Of a stretch of 23,719 nucleotides of DNA, positions 13,424-21,948 are shown one piece after another. A program made the translations under genes and the position numbers. The DNA is from a virus: positions 1 to 23,719 of IMG/VR virus record IMGVR_UViG_3300027759_000425; one strand, 5' to 3'. Position 1 is the first letter of the stretch. Every line of letters begins with the position of its first letter. The notes beneath the pieces were generated by a model that was given only the letters and a program-made list of their open reading frames with translations, had not been told where the DNA came from and did not search any database.

Positions 13424-13729
13424 TTAGGCGTAATAGCTGATGTTGAGCTTGGCTCCCGCCACCTGCTCAATGAACCGGATCATGGTAAGATCGCCGTCGT
13501 ACTGAAGCGTAACACCTACGGCGAGCGGCATACCCACAGACGTTGTAGGAACGATATTGTCGTCGCGCCAACGGACAGCCTGACCTTCGGGGGTAATGAG
13601 GGCGATTACAGGACGGCAATTCAAACCGTTGAGATCCACGGCAGGCACCGTCAGCGCCGTGGAAGAGCTGAGCGAGGTGATCTGCTGATAGCCTAACCTG
13701 GTAGTAATGGCTTTCAGGTTAATCGACAT
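13424..13729 (-). CDS. Small beta-rich virion protein
   Basis: A 101-residue protein, MSINLKAITTRLGYQQITSL to AGAKLNISYYA, with the conserved-looking core AVRWRDDNIVPTTSVGMPLA and LQYDGDLTMIRFIEQ. I have seen this pattern in small proteins of many phages and prophages, near capsid or fibre genes; it probably forms a compact beta sandwich, but its role is not known to me. The ATGATG at 13732-13727 offers two starts. AGGAG is three bases from the first and six from the second, identical to the spacing in the decoration gene, so I choose the second. It overlaps the TGA stop of the fibre gene by one base (TGATG). Confidence 0.72.
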   Translation of the reverse strand: MSINLKAITTRLGYQQITSLSSSTALTVPAVDLNGLNCRPVIALITPEGQAVRWRDDNIVPTTSVGMPLAVGVTLQYDGDLTMIRFIEQVAGAKLNISYYA

Positions 13730-16026
13730 CATATTCTCCTAGATTCCGTGAAGGACCGAATTTCTATGAAGTACTGCGTCGGTCCCGTAACCGGCGGGGT
13801 GAAGGGGGTATACGTGATGTCTACTGCCTGCCCGGTTAGCGAGTATAGACCGTTTTGCGGGGAAAGCAAGAAGCCCCGCGTAATGGTTACACTACGACCC
13901 GTCAGTGCGTATGATCCGTTTTGCGGGAGGAGCGAAAAGCCCCGCGTGATGGTTACGCTTTGCCCCGTAAGCGCGTAAAACCCATTGTTGGCCGTTATAG
14001 AATACGCAACACTGGTAGATGGCGTATAAGTTATGACGATCAGGCCGTCACCACCGGAGCCGCCAGAAATACCGACTGTAGCTCGTATAGCTCCGCCGCC
14101 GCCGCCACCGCCGTAAACACTAGATCCGCCTGATCCGAAACTTGCCGTGCTGGCCCCGCCGCCGCCGCCTGCGCCGCCGCCGCCACCAATAGTCTTCAAA
14201 ATATCTATGCCAATGCCGCCACTAGCGCCGGTTTCTTGAGGGTTTGCAATGCCGCCACCGCCACCGCCGCCGCCTCCGTTACGCCCGGCAACGGGCGGAG
14301 CTGACGTTCCGCCGCCAAATCCTTGAGAATTATTACCGCCTGTAGCCCCAGAACCGTTACTTCCGCCACCATTACCACCACCGCCGCCACCACGGGCACT
14401 AGCATTTGTCGCGTTATTCGTTCCATTGCCCCCCACAGCGCCGTTGCCATTGGGGCCGCCAGCTCCACCACCACCACCACCGCCGCTTGTGGATGTCGCA
14501 GTGTTGGCTGCGGCAGAACCCCCATTGCCGCCGTTGAAAGTTGCCCCGGTTCCGCCTGCTCCAACGGAGACAGCTCCGTTAATAGTCATTGATGCGCCGC
14601 CGCCGCCGCCCGCAGAATATGTGCCGCCAGCGGGGTTGGGGATAGTCGTATCCGTTCCTGAACCCGCAGTGGTTGTACCACTAGCAGCTACTATTCCCGT
14701 AGACCCAGCGCCGCCTGTGCCAACTTGAATTGATGAGATGGTGAATGACGCGCCCACGCTGTAATTTGAAATTGCGGTGTATCCGCCGCCACCGCCGCCA
14801 TACCCGCCCCTGCGGCTTGCCGTTGTGGTATAATATGTGCCCCCACTTCCACCACCACCCGCGCCAACAAGGTAGATGGCGTTGTTAGCCGGGTTCCAGT
14901 CGGCTGGCGTTGTCCAAGATGTTACTGCGGTATTTGAAATGTAGTACACAACTTGCGGATAAGTGACAAACGCCGCCCCGCTTACGCGCCCATTGTTGGT
15001 TGAGTTGCCGCCCACATACCATGTGTAGGGTGTAGACCCATTAGATGTTGCTGTGTCGGGCGTAAATATAAGATCGCGCAGGGCCATGTAGTCGCCGCGC
15101 GGCGTGCCGGTGCCGGTGTAATTGATCGTTGCACTCGTGCCAGATGTGCCACTAGTCAGCGTCAATGTAGCGGTGGCACTGCCCGTTATGGGAGGATTAG
15201 CAGTAATAGTAGTCGTAGTGCTGGCAGGAAGAGTGATCGTGGACGTGGCCGTTGCCGCAAGGCCCACAAAAGTGTTTGCGCCTGTGACGGTTAGCGTCAT
15301 GCCTGAAAAAGCAGTTTTCACAATACAGTTAAATGTAGAACCACCACCCGCAAAGGTTCTAGCTGCGGAGGTTGGAGAAAAAGTTATGTCTCCAATGCCG
15401 GTTCCTGCGGTAGTTGTAAACCCAGATGGAGCTGCGTTGTTGAAGGTAGGGACGTTTCCTCCCGTTATAAGAATTGATCCACCATTGAATGTTATATTTT
15501 TTGTTCCCGCCGCCGTAGTAAAAGCCTGCGGGCACGTTACAGTTTTACCATTTAAGTCCACTGTACCATTGGTAAGAGTGAACTGACCAAAATTAGAACT
15601 TGTTCCGGTTAACGTAAGCGCATCTTGAAGCACCCAAGTACTTCCTGACCCGTTAAAATTGATATTACAGTAAATTCCAAATCCACCAAAAGTGAGAGTT
15701 TTGGAGCCTGTCCCCGCGAACGTAATGGTAAAGTTGCTAGAAGCAGGATAAGACACGGTAGCCGGAGAAACTATAGTGACGCTGCCATGAATTGCCCAAG
15801 AGCCGGATGTTGCGGTAAACGAAATATCACCATCAGTTATAGATATATTGGCGCAAGAAATAACGCTTGCGCCGATTGATACTGTGTAACTACCCGGCCT
15901 ATCAAAAAAAACATTGTCCGCAGAAGTGGGGACGGTTGTGTTGGCGGGGCCTCCAGAGGAAAGCGACCAGTTGGTCGCAATGTTCCAGCTTGTGTTGGCC
16001 GCACCCCTATAATATTTATCAGTCAT
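13729..16026 (-). CDS. Large fibre/adhesin with glycine-rich domain and C-terminal 22-residue repeats
   Basis: A 765-residue Ser/Thr/Gly-rich protein in three parts. Residues 1-~370 are beta-helix-like (ANTSWNIATNWSLSSGG, VPTSADNVFFD, many short hydrophobic-Thr strands). Residues 384-667 are a complete glycine-rich domain bounded by AIYLVGAGGGG and GLIVITY, with long Gly runs expected to form polyglycine-type helices. Residues 681-~739 hold three repeats of 22 residues, NGxYxLTGxxVxIT, then a short tail. Phage adhesins with such glycine-rich parts bind cell surfaces. It lies in a fibre block between portal and scaffold genes, 2 bases after the preceding small gene. It could be a tail fibre or a capsid fibre; nothing here decides. 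Confidence 0.8.
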   Translation of the reverse strand: MTDKYYRGAANTSWNIATNWSLSSGGPANTTVPTSADNVFFDRPGSYTVSIGASVISCANISITDGDISFTATSGSWAIHGSVTIVSPATVSYPASSNFTITFAGTGSKTLTFGGFGIYCNINFNGSGSTWVLQDALTLTGTSSNFGQFTLTNGTVDLNGKTVTCPQAFTTAAGTKNITFNGGSILITGGNVPTFNNAAPSGFTTTAGTGIGDITFSPTSAARTFAGGGSTFNCIVKTAFSGMTLTVTGANTFVGLAATATSTITLPASTTTTITANPPITGSATATLTLTSGTSGTSATINYTGTGTPRGDYMALRDLIFTPDTATSNGSTPYTWYVGGNSTNNGRVSGAAFVTYPQVVYYISNTAVTSWTTPADWNPANNAIYLVGAGGGGSGGTYYTTTASRRGGYGGGGGGYTAISNYSVGASFTISSIQVGTGGAGSTGIVAASGTTTAGSGTDTTIPNPAGGTYSAGGGGGASMTINGAVSVGAGGTGATFNGGNGGSAAANTATSTSGGGGGGGAGGPNGNGAVGGNGTNNATNASARGGGGGGNGGGSNGSGATGGNNSQGFGGGTSAPPVAGRNGGGGGGGGGIANPQETGASGGIGIDILKTIGGGGGAGGGGGASTASFGSGGSSVYGGGGGGGAIRATVGISGGSGGDGLIVITYTPSTSVAYSITANNGFYALTGQSVTITRGFSLLPQNGSYALTGRSVTITRGFLLSPQNGLYSLTGQAVDITYTPFTPPVTGPTQYFIEIRSFTESRRI
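13736..13740 (-). promoter_or_regulatory. AGGAG ribosome binding site that decides the start at 13729
   Basis: AGGAG lies three bases before the first and six before the second ATG of ATGATG. The same leader, TAGGAGAATAT, precedes the decoration gene with a six-base spacing, favouring the second ATG. Confidence 0.75.
13810..13986 (-). repeat. Three tandem 66-base repeats at the end of the large fibre gene
   Basis: Copies start at 13986, 13920 and 13854 on the minus strand with exact 66-base (22-codon) period; the third is partial. They encode NGFYALTGQSVTITRGF, NGSYALTGRSVTITRGF and NGLYSLTGQAVDITY. The first two are the most alike. Confidence 0.9.
14035..14865 (-). repeat. GGN-rich low-complexity tract (polyglycine coding)
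   Basis: Dense CCG/GCC/ACC triplets on the plus strand, encoding glycine runs in residues 388-664 of the 765-residue fibre. Not a tandem repeat with a fixed unit beyond three bases. Confidence 0.8.
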
Positions 16027-16635: not shown

Positions 16636-17463
16636 TTAGAAAGTGATGCTTCCGCTGCTAGTCCAGGTATAAATTTTGTTGCCGCCTACATCTGTAAGCG
16701 TTGGTGAACCCGTTGTAGATGTTGCGTCTGGGTATGTATTTGGGTAGCTTATAATAACAATACCCGAACCGCCAGCACCAGATGTTCCCGTACCGCGCTC
16801 ATGCCCGCCGCCGCCGCCGCCAGTATTGGCTGTTCCAGCTACTGCTTGGTTAAACGAACCTGCGCCGCCGCCGCCTGTACCGCCTGCGCCTTGCGTTCCG
16901 GCGTATGCTCCACCGCCACCGCCACCAGCATAATAGGTGGCGGTTCCAGAAATAGATGACTGAGACCCAATGCCACCAGATCCGCCATTTGTAGTGCCTG
17001 TTCCTCCAACGGCCCCAGCGCCGCCGCCGCCAGCACCGGCAGTAGTTCCACCTGCTGCATTTCCGCCGTTATTACCTTGCCCACTTGTTCCTGAACCGCC
17101 AGTTCCGCCGTTGCTGCTGCCGCCGCCGCCAGATCCGCCCGTTGCACCGTTACCAAAACTAAAAGCCGGTGCGGCTCCACCACCGCCGCCTCCCGTAGAT
17201 GTTATTGTGCCAAATACGCTATCGTTGCCATTTCCACCAATTGACGAGGTTGAAGCGGTTCCACCGGCTCCAACAGTTACGGTAATTGGCGATCCTGCTG
17301 TAACTGCGTAGCCAGTTGCAGTGCGATAGCCGCCTGCGCCACCGCCGCCACCACCATAATACCCGCCACCGCCACCGCCACCCGCAACAACAAGATATTC
17401 AACAGTGCTTGGGGCAGCACTGACCGCAGCTACAGCAAGAAAAAAATTTTTAGCAGCAAACAT
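16636..17463 (-). CDS. Glycine-rich fibre/adhesin protein
   Basis: A 275-residue protein that is almost entirely one glycine-rich domain. After a short hydrophobic N-terminus (AAKNFFLAVAAVSAA), VEYLVVAGGGGGGG opens the domain at residue 21, and SGIVIISYP closes it near 241. The C-terminal cap, TLTDVGGNKIYTWTSSGSIT, is a familiar ending of phage glycine-rich proteins. The domain is the stand-alone counterpart of residues 384-667 in the 765-residue fibre. The ATG at 17463 overlaps the preceding stop as TAATG, so I prefer it to in-frame starts up to 17499. The N-terminus looks faintly like a signal peptide but more likely is an assembly segment. Probably a receptor-binding or fibre component. 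Confidence 0.8.
   Translation of the reverse strand: MFAAKNFFLAVAAVSAAPSTVEYLVVAGGGGGGGYYGGGGGGAGGYRTATGYAVTAGSPITVTVGAGGTASTSSIGGNGNDSVFGTITSTGGGGGGAAPAFSFGNGATGGSGGGGSSNGGTGGSGTSGQGNNGGNAAGGTTAGAGGGGAGAVGGTGTTNGGSGGIGSQSSISGTATYYAGGGGGGAYAGTQGAGGTGGGGAGSFNQAVAGTANTGGGGGGHERGTGTSGAGGSGIVIISYPNTYPDATSTTGSPTLTDVGGNKIYTWTSSGSITF
16762..17382 (-). repeat. Second GGN-rich low-complexity tract
   Basis: Same triplet composition as the tract at 14035-14865, encoding residues 28-234 of the 275-residue glycine-rich protein. Confidence 0.8.
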
Positions 17464-18968
17464 TATGGGGTGTATCCTTGCGCTATGCTGCCGTACCAAT
17501 TGGTGCCATCAGCAATAAAAGTAAGGATGTCCATTTTGCCCGCAGTAGCGGTGATTGTAGGTGCGCCAGCAGTGCCCCATTTGACACCAGTAAATGTTGC
17601 CGTACCATTGCCAGTTGCCGCAGCTTGTTTTAACAGTAGCACAAACGATTTGCCCGCAACGTTTGTTGGCATGGTAAACGTGCAAGCCGTTGAAGCAGTC
17701 AACGTAGCCGTCTGCACAGTTCCATTAGTCAACGCAATGGTATTGGAAGTAGTAACTGTCCCAATAGCCACCACCGATTCAACGTAATTTGTAACGGTAG
17801 GATTGTTGACCGTGGGAGAAGTGCCAAGAACAATGCTACCGGAGCCTGTAACCGCAGCCGCCAAAGCGGTGCCAACGCCAGTACCTAATCCAGTTATGCC
17901 CGCAATAGGCAAACCCGTGGCATTGGTAAGCGTACCGCTGGTGGGCGTACCAAGAGCGCCGCCATTGACGACAAAAGCCCCCGCAGATCCGGTGTTGACG
18001 CCAAGAGCCGTTACCACGCCAGTGCCGGTAGTGACGGTTGATGGAGCCGCGCCTGCGCCGCCACCTACCATGATGCGCTTGCAGTTAGCACCCCTGGAAG
18101 ACGCCCAGGTAGAAGAAGACCCAAAATACGGAACGCCGCCAGACGTGCCTGCAACTGTAAGGGCTAACGTGCCCGCTGCGGTAATGGGCGAACCAGAAAC
18201 CGAAATCAGACCGCCGGTAAACGATTGCGCCACACTCGTGACGGTGCCTGTTCCGGTTACAGTGGTCCATGTAGGTACACCAGCACCTCCAGAAGTAAGC
18301 ACTTGGCCTGCCGTACCCGTAGCCGAATACGCAAGGGCGGTGCCTGTACCGTAAGGAATAGTTCCTGCGGTAGGCGTTGCCGTGCCGCCAGTGCCGCCAT
18401 TAGCCGTTGCAAGCGTACCGGCAAGCGTTATGGTGCCGGACGTAGTGATAGGCCCGCCGCTGGTTGTAAGGCCAGTTGTGCCGCCGCTAACATTAACGCT
18501 GGTGACGGTGCCAGTGCCCGCAGCCGTGGTCCATGTAGGCGCACCCGCACCAGCAGACGTAAGCACCTGGCCTGCTGTACCGACAGCCGAATAGGCCAGC
18601 GTAGCGCCCGTGCCGTAAGGTACGGAGCCTGCTACGGGAGTGCTGCTGGGGCCAATCTGAAGCGTTTTGGTAGCCGCCAACGTAATGAACACATTTTTGG
18701 TGCCTGCTGAAAACGACACCGCGTTGTTGCTGTTTGAAGACGCTAAAACGGTTGTGCGGGCAAACACGTTGGCGCTGGAATACGTACCCAGACCCACTTC
18801 AAACTCAGCCGTTGTCTGGCCTTGAATGCAGTAATAGAACGTGTCTCCCGCACTCAAAACCGCAGAAAAAGTCCGATAGCCCGTAGGGGCCGCACCCGAA
18901 ACCGTAATGCTGCCCGTGCCCGTCGTGGTGGACGTGTCCTTGACACGATCTGCGGTTATGAAGGCCAT
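17463..18968 (-). CDS. Tail-fibre-like structural protein with duplicated shaft repeat
   Basis: A 501-residue Gly/Thr/Ser/Ala-rich protein. Residues 1-100 are a widespread phage fibre N-terminus: MAFITADRVKDTSTTTGTGS, then GDTFYYCIQG and VFARTTVLASSN. The shaft contains a 43-residue unit twice, at 116-158 and 204-246, each with YGTG, LAYSA, GTAGQVLTS, PTWTT and GTGTVTSV. The C-terminal 100 residues (QTATLTASTACTFTMP, then GKMDILTFIADGTNWYGS) are a typical beta-structured end that I have seen in other phage fibres. AGGA lies seven bases upstream of the ATG. It starts the main fibre block; attachment to tail or head is unknown. Confidence 0.83.
   Translation of the reverse strand: MAFITADRVKDTSTTTGTGSITVSGAAPTGYRTFSAVLSAGDTFYYCIQGQTTAEFEVGLGTYSSANVFARTTVLASSNSNNAVSFSAGTKNVFITLAATKTLQIGPSSTPVAGSVPYGTGATLAYSAVGTAGQVLTSAGAGAPTWTTAAGTGTVTSVNVSGGTTGLTTSGGPITTSGTITLAGTLATANGGTGGTATPTAGTIPYGTGTALAYSATGTAGQVLTSGGAGVPTWTTVTGTGTVTSVAQSFTGGLISVSGSPITAAGTLALTVAGTSGGVPYFGSSSTWASSRGANCKRIMVGGGAGAAPSTVTTGTGVVTALGVNTGSAGAFVVNGGALGTPTSGTLTNATGLPIAGITGLGTGVGTALAAAVTGSGSIVLGTSPTVNNPTVTNYVESVVAIGTVTTSNTIALTNGTVQTATLTASTACTFTMPTNVAGKSFVLLLKQAAATGNGTATFTGVKWGTAGAPTITATAGKMDILTFIADGTNWYGSIAQGYTP
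18231..18623 (-). repeat. Duplicated 129-base shaft unit in the 501-residue fibre gene
   Basis: Two direct copies, 18495-18623 and 18231-18359, encode 43-residue units that share YGTG, LAYSA, GTAGQVLTS, PTWTT and GTGTVTSV; an unrelated spacer of 45 codons lies between. Confidence 0.82.
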
Positions 18969-19405: not shown

Positions 19406-19771
19406 TCACGACAAAAACTTGAGCTTGTACAGGGTTGATAGATACAACCCTACAATCTCATCAATGATGTTCTGCAACGCGCTGTCTTTTTCGTCTACCA
19501 CCTCGTATCGACAATCTTCAATCTCTTTGAGCTGGTTTTCTAAAAACTCGACCACATTGGTGGTTTTTTTGGCCGTCTGAAGACTGATGCCGCCAATCAA
19601 GCCATGACGGCCTTGGTAAGCTTCCGCAAACTTGTCCGCCAGGTCAACAATGCCATCGTAAAACCCTTGCAACGCCATGTGTTTAGCAAAGCTGCGGGTA
19701 TTGAGATGAACCGAATGGGCTACATCGCGGCCAAGGAACAGATACCCTACGAAATCGGAAGCTTTCTTCAT
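19406..19771 (-). CDS. Dps/ferritin-like helical phage protein
   Basis: A 121-residue all-helical protein. Residues H19, H31, D46 and E50 have spacing of 12, 15 and 4, the same as the ferroxidase ligands H51, H63, D78 and E82 of E. coli Dps, and the local sequence also aligns (HMALQGFYDGIVDLADKFAE against the Dps helix B). Dps Asp67 is replaced by Gln35. The C-terminal half (EFLENQLKEIEDC and IIDEIVGLYLSTL) would supply two further helices. I think it belongs to a phage family listed as DUF5856, but cannot check. The ATG overlaps the portal stop (ATGA), so it is a late, coupled product. Iron oxidation, DNA protection or a purely structural use are all possible. Confidence 0.75.
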   Translation of the reverse strand: MKKASDFVGYLFLGRDVAHSVHLNTRSFAKHMALQGFYDGIVDLADKFAEAYQGRHGLIGGISLQTAKKTTNVVEFLENQLKEIEDCRYEVVDEKDSALQNIIDEIVGLYLSTLYKLKFLS

Positions 19772-21948
19772 TGCGGCATTCCTTGGGGTGGCATTTCCAT
19801 TGGCATTCCTTCACCTGGCAGCTCTTGGCCGGGCATTTCGCCCGCCAGATCGCCGCTGGTGATCATACCGTGAACCGTGCCCATGACGATGTCTTGGATC
19901 TGCTCAGGAGACATGGACGCTTGAACGGCTGCAAGGCGCTTGGTCTCGGCGTCAAACGCCTTGATCGTCGCTTCAAAGTTCTTACGTTCCAGATCCTGCA
20001 TTTCAACAGACTGATGGACGTTCTGAAGCATTTTATGCATCATTTCCATCTCTTGACCCATCGCCTGCATCTGCTGTTCAGCAGCCTGAAGCGCCGGGGA
20101 TTTGTCGTCCGTTTCCAAAAGTTTGGGATCAATGGTCTTGGCAAACCGCGCAGACATTTCCTGCGCGCCAGGCCAATCCATGTTTTTGATAAACAGATCG
20201 CCCGCAACGGCCCAAAGATTGGGGTTAGCCTGAAGAAGCTGCGACATGGAGTCAAGAGCTTCCTGACGCTTGGTCATGTAGCTTGGCCCGGTCGTAACGC
20301 ACACATCGTACCTGCCAACGCCGGGGTTGTAGATCTTCTCAATCACAATGCTGGGGTTTTCAGGGCTGACGATCTTCTTGACCGGCTCTTGCTGCATGGG
20401 GTCAATCTTAGCCATGCTCGTTTCGCCGTCCATACCAATGATACGGGCGATGCGCTGCGTGTCGTAGATCTTGGGGATCATGTCTACGATCTGGCGGGTC
20501 GTGTAGCGGATGGCGCGGGCTAGGTTGTCAACGTAGTGATATGTGCCCGTATCGCCTTGTTTTTCGCGAGCCAAAATGGCCCGGCCTGACCGCTCGTTGC
20601 TGGTCGCGCCGAGGCTACTGTCGTACTGACCAGTGGTCGATTTGATGTCGTCAGACGCGCCTGCTTTGGCCTGTATGAGTCCAACTTGCGCCATAGGCGG
20701 GGGCGACCGCTGCGGGAGCGGCAGAACAGCGCCAGCGCCGTCCGTAACGTCAGGATTGACCTCCAGATAGGGCCAGTTGTTGACATTTGCGGTCTTCCAC
20801 TGCTGCTCATAACCTTCAAACTGGCCTCCGTAGCCGATAAACGGCGCTTTGGGGGCCAACGCCAGCATTTCGGTCTCGGCAGACACCCAATAGTTGTACA
20901 TCCGCTGGGCGTCTTTGGCGTTTCGCACCAATCCAGACACGAAAAGCCGTCCATCGACCTCAAATTCGTTGCCAACGACGCGGATGACGGGAATCCACTG
21001 GCCTGCCCAGTCGTTTTCTTCCAGCATCTCGTAGCCGTTGGTCTTGCACCACTTGACGCGCTTGCGGTCTACCTGGCGGCTCTTGAGAGGGGTCAACCCA
21101 GACGCCTTGAACATGGCGTCTTCGCGGCTGCCCTCAAATGCAGTGCGGTTGTCAGGGTACAGATTGAGCTTGGCGGGCTCGTATTCAATGTAGAAATACT
21201 CCGCAATGCGGACTACGTCTTCATTTAGCCAGTTGGACAGATTTTCGTCGCCAACGCCTTGCTGTTGGATAGACGAGATGGGCATGGCGTTTGGGAAAAG
21301 CCGGGCGTATTCAGACTTTGTGAGATCCTCGGTGATAAAGCACCATTTGGCGTCAGATCCGCATGGATCTTGAATGGTGGGGTCCATGTAGACACTAAAA
21401 GAGTTGCGAATGCGCCCGATGCGGATGTCTTGATCGAATGTATCATCGCTGCAATATTCCGTGAGCAGTCGGATGTAGCCCTCACCATACGTTACCTGAT
21501 TTTCGCAAGCAGTATCGTAAGCCACGTCTGCGTCCGAGATATACTCAATATGGCGAACGATGCCATCGTAGATTGCAGCAACTTCCACGTCTGCCTTGTC
21601 GTCAGCAGGAATGACCTTACCGCTTGGTCGATTCTGTCTCTGATCATTCGTCACCTGTCTGACGTGCTGGGGCAACTTGTTGATGGTCAAGCAAGGCCGG
21701 GCGTTGATCGTTTGCCCCTGCACAGAGCCACGAGTAGCCAACACGTCCGCAGGCCACTGCCACTGATTGTCAGGCGACCCGGCAAAGAAACGCAGGTCGT
21801 CCAACTCGTCTTCGCGACTCTCGGAATACGCGGCGATAGCCATCGTCAGACGACTACGCATTGTGTCCATGACGGTAGCGGGGTCTTTTTTACGAGACCC
21901 GCCACCGCTCGACACGCGGCCCGCTGCTGCTACCCCTGAGTAATCCAT
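19768..21948 (-). CDS. Portal protein, P22 gp1-like
   Basis: A 726-residue protein, nearly equal to P22 gp1 (725). The N-terminal part has YSESREDELDDLRFFAGSPD and NARPCLTINKLPQHVRQVTN, both typical of P22-type portals; the central part holds the wing and stem (NNWPYLEVNPDVTDG, SGRAILAREKQGDTGTYHYV), and the C-terminal third is a long Gln/Met/Glu-rich helix (LQAAEQQMQAMGQEMEMMHK) that would form the barrel, ending in a Met/Pro/Gly-rich tail. The portal forms the twelve-subunit DNA channel at one head vertex and binds terminase and gp4. It starts directly after the preceding stop (TAAATG), with a weak purine-rich site upstream. Confidence 0.94.
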   Translation of the reverse strand: MDYSGVAAAGRVSSGGGSRKKDPATVMDTMRSRLTMAIAAYSESREDELDDLRFFAGSPDNQWQWPADVLATRGSVQGQTINARPCLTINKLPQHVRQVTNDQRQNRPSGKVIPADDKADVEVAAIYDGIVRHIEYISDADVAYDTACENQVTYGEGYIRLLTEYCSDDTFDQDIRIGRIRNSFSVYMDPTIQDPCGSDAKWCFITEDLTKSEYARLFPNAMPISSIQQQGVGDENLSNWLNEDVVRIAEYFYIEYEPAKLNLYPDNRTAFEGSREDAMFKASGLTPLKSRQVDRKRVKWCKTNGYEMLEENDWAGQWIPVIRVVGNEFEVDGRLFVSGLVRNAKDAQRMYNYWVSAETEMLALAPKAPFIGYGGQFEGYEQQWKTANVNNWPYLEVNPDVTDGAGAVLPLPQRSPPPMAQVGLIQAKAGASDDIKSTTGQYDSSLGATSNERSGRAILAREKQGDTGTYHYVDNLARAIRYTTRQIVDMIPKIYDTQRIARIIGMDGETSMAKIDPMQQEPVKKIVSPENPSIVIEKIYNPGVGRYDVCVTTGPSYMTKRQEALDSMSQLLQANPNLWAVAGDLFIKNMDWPGAQEMSARFAKTIDPKLLETDDKSPALQAAEQQMQAMGQEMEMMHKMLQNVHQSVEMQDLERKNFEATIKAFDAETKRLAAVQASMSPEQIQDIVMGTVHGMITSGDLAGEMPGQELPGEGMPMEMPPQGMPQ

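Follow-up and report, generated by a model that had tools for sequence, protein, structure and literature searches.

The window analysed here, i.e. the whole stretch of 23,719 nucleotides of IMG/VR virus record IMGVR_UViG_3300027759_000425 (positions 1 to 23,719), contains on its minus strand a gene of 121 amino acids (19406..19771) which Pfam, PHROG, AF2, Foldseek and hhalign assign to DUF5856/PHROG 858 and characterise as a putative reduced, Dps-like mini-ferritin. An ORF check confirmed the ATG start, the length and the residues listed in the first-pass annotation. The adjoining gene on the same strand encodes a P22-like portal protein of 726 amino acids (19768..21948; PF16510, 579 bits; phrog_156), and ORF coordinates and sequence place the stop of the portal gene and the start of the DUF5856 gene on the same four nucleotides, ATGA (19768..19771, minus strand). 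A likely ribosome binding site, AAGGA (19780..19784, minus strand), is found 8 nt 5' of the ATG, within the end of the portal gene. Elsewhere in the window, glycine-rich tracts of great length run through two ORFs (13729-16026, 765 aa, and 16636-17499, 287 aa), which are possibly of the tail-fibre adhesin type.

Membership of the window protein in DUF5856 (PF19174) is supported by a score of 80.7 bits against a cut-off of 34.6, and the same model was matched by all 71 aligned relatives. The protein also belongs to phrog_858 (E 7e-27), which carries the label 'starvation-inducible transcriptional regulator', and had no match in NCBIfam or PADLOC. A tblastn search with the window protein (E 0.01) retrieved 1,339 of 50,697 public phage records (~2.6%), and collection scans for relatives used single divergent members as queries; in the sequences sampled here, DUF5856 was seen almost only in viruses. 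Carriers include phage RaK2 and T4, whose record labels the gene MobD.6; the gene matching it is named rI.-1 in the records of AR1 and Aeromonas phage 25, so that T4 rI.-1 (MobD.6) is a member of the family. A literature search under DUF5856 returned nothing, no paper tying rI.-1 to Dps was found, and the papers found on phage Dps do not name DUF5856 as Dps-related.

The relationship to Dps was assessed by sequence at several levels. Searched alone against PDB sequences, the window protein reached only NapA, a Dps-family protein, at E 0.18, so profiles were needed; a 71-member DUF5856 profile placed NapA entries at the top (E 5.8e-5), followed by other Dps proteins, and a smaller DUF5856 profile matched Dps/NapA likewise. 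Profile-profile alignment with hhalign against 17 Dps sequences gave a probability of 90.3 and a score of 42.1, compared with 12.5 for the reversed control and at most 19.1 over 100 column shuffles. Kinship with bacterioferritin was rejected, its hhalign score of 13.3 falling inside the shuffle range. The Dps set consisted of E. coli Dps, a genomic Dps 81% identical to it and 15 others from the collection. Since none of the ferritin-family loci examined first (L343-L373) matched the E. coli Dps query and 19 ORFs there fitted a bacterioferritin pattern, Dps loci were chosen among lower-scoring matches. With E. coli Dps alone as target, hhalign gave a weak match (probability 7.8), so that significance requires profiles on both sides. 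Homology of DUF5856 to Dps is well supported, and the earlier observation that the helix sequence surrounding the proposed ligands aligns with Dps is borne out by the NapA and hhalign scores.

The first-pass annotation had proposed that H19, H31, D46 and E50 reproduce the 12/15/4 spacing of the E. coli Dps ferroxidase ligands H51, H63, D78 and E82. These residues and this spacing are present, and the exact H-H-D-E 12/15/4 pattern arises in 0.03% of shuffles of the window protein. The assignment of H19 (19715..19717, minus strand) as the H51 equivalent was nevertheless rejected, as every alignment sets H22 there: phmmer, hmmsearch and hhalign agree in placing H22 (19706..19708, minus strand), the histidine of 'HLN', opposite the one in Dps 'HWN' (H51 in E. 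coli), and three positions are gapped before H31 (19679..19681, minus strand; the H63 equivalent). H19 is conserved but lies outside the Dps ligand columns, since the Dps column aligned to it holds K/H/R/Q, and its spacing of 12 is a coincidence produced by a conserved HxxH together with the three-residue loop deletion. The equivalents of D78 and E82, putative ligands from the partner subunit, are D46 (19634..19636, minus strand) and E50 (19622..19624, minus strand). As read from the alignments, the ligand spacing in the window protein is 9/15/4, via H22. H22 and H31 are 9 residues apart in 215 of 240 family members, 12 apart in 11 and 13 apart in 14, and relatives which retain the loop, such as that at locus L206, read HWQTKSQSSFAEH and have the genuine Dps 12/15/4. 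The reported change of Asp67 to Gln35 (19667..19669, minus strand) was confirmed from the alignment columns.

Conservation was counted over 242 distinct DUF5856 members of wide divergence. H22 is present in 240/240, H31 in 241/241, D46 in 242/242 and E50 in 241 of the 242, the exception being D; H19 is found in 237/240, with K or R in the remainder. The Dps Asp67 position, which is D/E in 16 of 17 Dps sequences, is acidic in 12 of 241 DUF5856 members, the acid thus being lost in 95% and the column otherwise holding N/G/Q/A/R/S. Helix D contributes a family-specific acid, D104 (19460..19462, minus strand; D in 238/242, E in 3, A in 1), and Y115 (19427..19429, minus strand; 240/241), neither of which has a corresponding Dps ligand. 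In the alignment of 71 relatives, which share 27-96% identity with the window protein, 10 of 121 columns are invariant and these include all four ligand positions (hypergeometric ~2.5e-5). Synonymous codons vary at these otherwise near-invariant positions, and a median pN/pS of 0.21 indicates purifying selection on DUF5856.

The AF2 model of the window protein (pLDDT 95.2, pTM 0.89) is a four-helix bundle in which DSSP assigns helix A to residues 4-24 (19700..19762), helix B to residues 28-56 (19604..19690), helix C to residues 73-91 (19499..19555) and helix D to residues 97-119 (19415..19483), all encoded on the minus strand. Foldseek matches of the monomer in the PDB consist almost entirely of Dps chains, with a TMq of up to 0.75 and a probability of 1.00; their E-values of 0.037 and up are without significance on their own, as is usual for helical bundles. 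The fold matches of the T4 rI.-1 model are likewise mostly Dps; CopM, a DJ-1/ferritin-like protein and further bundles are interspersed among them. Helix B, which carries H31, D46 and E50, is unbroken, and ideal helix geometry sets H31 ~22 and ~28 Å from D46 and E50, so that H22, H31, D46 and E50 cannot converge in one subunit. In Dps, the site arises between subunits with antiparallel B helices. Convergence on one site, as had been anticipated either within or between subunits, would accordingly by the model be confined to a subunit interface, which fits Dps. The short BC helix of the Dps two-fold interface is absent from the model, where residues 57-72 form coil, making assembly of a Dps-like cage doubtful for the window protein. 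In T4-type members (L084/L394 and T4-like relatives), an N-terminal M-K-F-x-D-F segment precedes helix A; it is missing in the window protein, and where it is present its residues 1-5 are modelled with low confidence. The segment is reminiscent of the T4 capsid-targeting leader, a weak lead, but no cleavage site was evident at this N-terminus.

Proteins of the PF00210 Dps branch, including E. coli Dps, H. pylori NapA and L. innocua Dps, are the best matches of DUF5856 by both sequence profile and fold. They share the four-helix bundle and, in the same order, the near-invariant equivalents of H51, H63, D78 and E82 with the 15/4 spacing of H63-D78-E82, and some DUF5856 members retain the full loop and read HWQ. 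Unlike Dps, DUF5856 proteins have ~120 residues (156-185 in the Dps compared here), an A-B loop three residues shorter, no D67 equivalent, HLN in most members where Dps has HWN, no BC helix in the model, a conserved D104 and, in the window protein, no DNA-binding tail. Dps-family proteins have been described in Lactobacillus and Streptomyces phages and in 'Gratiaviridae', where they were proposed to relieve oxidative stress (PMC8008677, PMC6669764), so that the phage mini-ferritin is already known as a kind. Such bona fide phage Dps (125 records) match Dps directly by BLAST, whereas DUF5856 is a separate and more reduced family of ~1,340 records. What appears to be new is that a large family of unknown role is a reduced, virus-carried branch of Dps with a repeated link to portal genes.

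The coupling to the portal gene described for the window extends to its clade, in which a portal lies upstream of DUF5856 in 79 of 80 loci and 57 of these 79 show the 4-nt start-to-stop overlap. Packaging genes also precede DUF5856 directly elsewhere: an SU10-like portal in L404/L342 (L404:902-3378), a T7-like connector in L427, L429 and L430 (1223-3375) and a terminase gene in L422. Neither the SU10-like portal nor the T7-like connector has significant BLASTP similarity to the window portal. In the family tree, members adjoining P22-type portals form one clade (96/86) and those adjoining T7 connectors sit on a separate branch with moderate support; portal adjacency therefore probably arose more than once. 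Portal linkage across the whole family was rejected, as most sampled clades are without it. In T4, unlike in the window, the gene adjoins the antiholin gene rI and not a portal, lying in the rI operon 3' of rI with a 4-nt overlap; in Ackermannviridae it is located a few genes upstream of the primase, and in further clades beside RusA and GroES or before a tail-fibre-like gene. Coupling to the portal thus characterises certain clades rather than the family as a whole. A GroES-like co-chaperonin gene occurs near DUF5856 in two clades (L013:1586-1828, L105:3666-3923, L082:3555-3803), ahead of the portal in one and behind DUF5856 in the other.

Together, these data suggest that the window gene probably encodes a reduced mini-ferritin of the Dps superfamily with an interface iron site, whose oxidation of iron would, at a late stage of infection, protect phage DNA or the infected cell. 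The core of the earlier proposal of a phage mini-ferritin with a Dps-type site is thereby retained on the strength of profile, fold and conservation, its ligand set being corrected to H22. In the mechanism envisaged, two subunits, each a four-helix bundle of ~120 residues lacking the Dps DNA-binding tail and the BC helix, would pair via their B helices. H22 and H31 from one subunit would then meet D46 and E50 from its partner in a metal site at the dimer interface, a prediction that builds on homology and ligand conservation. This site would most likely bind Fe(II), which could be oxidised by H2O2 or O2, with less Fenton chemistry on phage DNA and in the infected cell as the expected outcome. 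Loss of the Asp67 equivalent points to a site with one strong and one weaker position for iron. The proposal that the protein is made during assembly is plausible for the window clade, where translation right after the portal would place it late and alongside assembly proteins; it does not hold in general, since T4, Ackermannviridae and others carry the gene elsewhere. A more far-reaching joint claim, that DUF5856 is a virus-specific mini-ferritin of T4, Ackermannviridae, jumbo phages and many short-tailed phages, independently co-translated with the portal in several lineages and delivered to the procapsid or its vicinity, where it shields DNA against oxidation by iron while packaging proceeds, is put forward only tentatively and is rather unlikely to hold in full.

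In the window clade the gene immediately follows the portal, and elsewhere it follows SU10-like and T7-like portals. This placement, the loss of the Asp67 position and the absence of a BC helix in the model would also suit reuse of the Dps fold and dimer as a structural or accessory component of the portal or virion, stabilised by a metal such as Zn and devoid of ferroxidase activity. The classical Dps iron ligands, however, persist in T4-type and Ackermannviridae members that have no portal linkage, and such reuse is considered unlikely. In T4, rI.-1 lies in the rI operon, and according to a review (PMC6832632) over-expressed rI.-1 slightly delayed the collapse of lysis inhibition and relieved the slow growth caused by rIII. 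A lysis-timing factor of the kind suggested for T4 rI.-1, which modulates lysis inhibition through protein contacts and uses the Dps fold only as a scaffold, could be imagined on these grounds, but the effect as reported there is slight and confined to over-expression, the gene is distant from lysis genes in many carriers, and RaK2 has a homolog although its authors found neither T holin nor RI (PMC3622015). As this explanation would also leave the invariant metal ligands unaccounted for, little weight is given to it; the lysis-inhibition effect itself says nothing about iron.

Two further explanations appear highly improbable. The name of PHROG 858, and the remote kinship with a superfamily in which some Dps members bind DNA, would be compatible with a DNA-binding or metal-sensing regulator; yet in the window protein helix A is not preceded by an N-terminal tail and the net charge is ~-3, and the name looks transferred from Dps ('DNA starvation') and not based on a test. 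Equally hard to sustain is an unrelated four-helix bundle with chance spacing: helical bundles do yield spurious matches and the 12/15/4 spacing based on H19 was indeed fortuitous, but the profile and shuffle controls, the near-invariance of the ligands over 242 sequences and the existence of intermediate forms that read HWQ and keep the whole loop all speak against it.

The probable assignment as a mini-ferritin gives DUF5856 a testable biochemical function, including for T4 rI.-1, on which the literature search found only over-expression data. If iron handling is confirmed, phages would widely carry an antioxidant mini-ferritin of their own, and its association with portal genes would connect it with DNA packaging or the late phase of infection. 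The family also illustrates how much of the Dps design can be dispensed with without loss of the interface ligands. Fold matches to the DUF5856 model in BFVD include the giant-virus proteins A0A481ZC29 (Pithovirus LCPAC404; E 8e-5) and A0A7D3V608 (Fadolivirus; E 4e-3). In the same database, a Dps-like domain is recognised by fold in the large viral proteins A0A6J7WIS1, A0A6J7XDU5, A0A8S5MNG7 and A0A6J5N5R9, of which A0A6J7XDU5 is named as a prohead protease and A0A8S5MNG7 as a NUDIX hydrolase; linkage of such a domain to a head protease would fit a role in the capsid.
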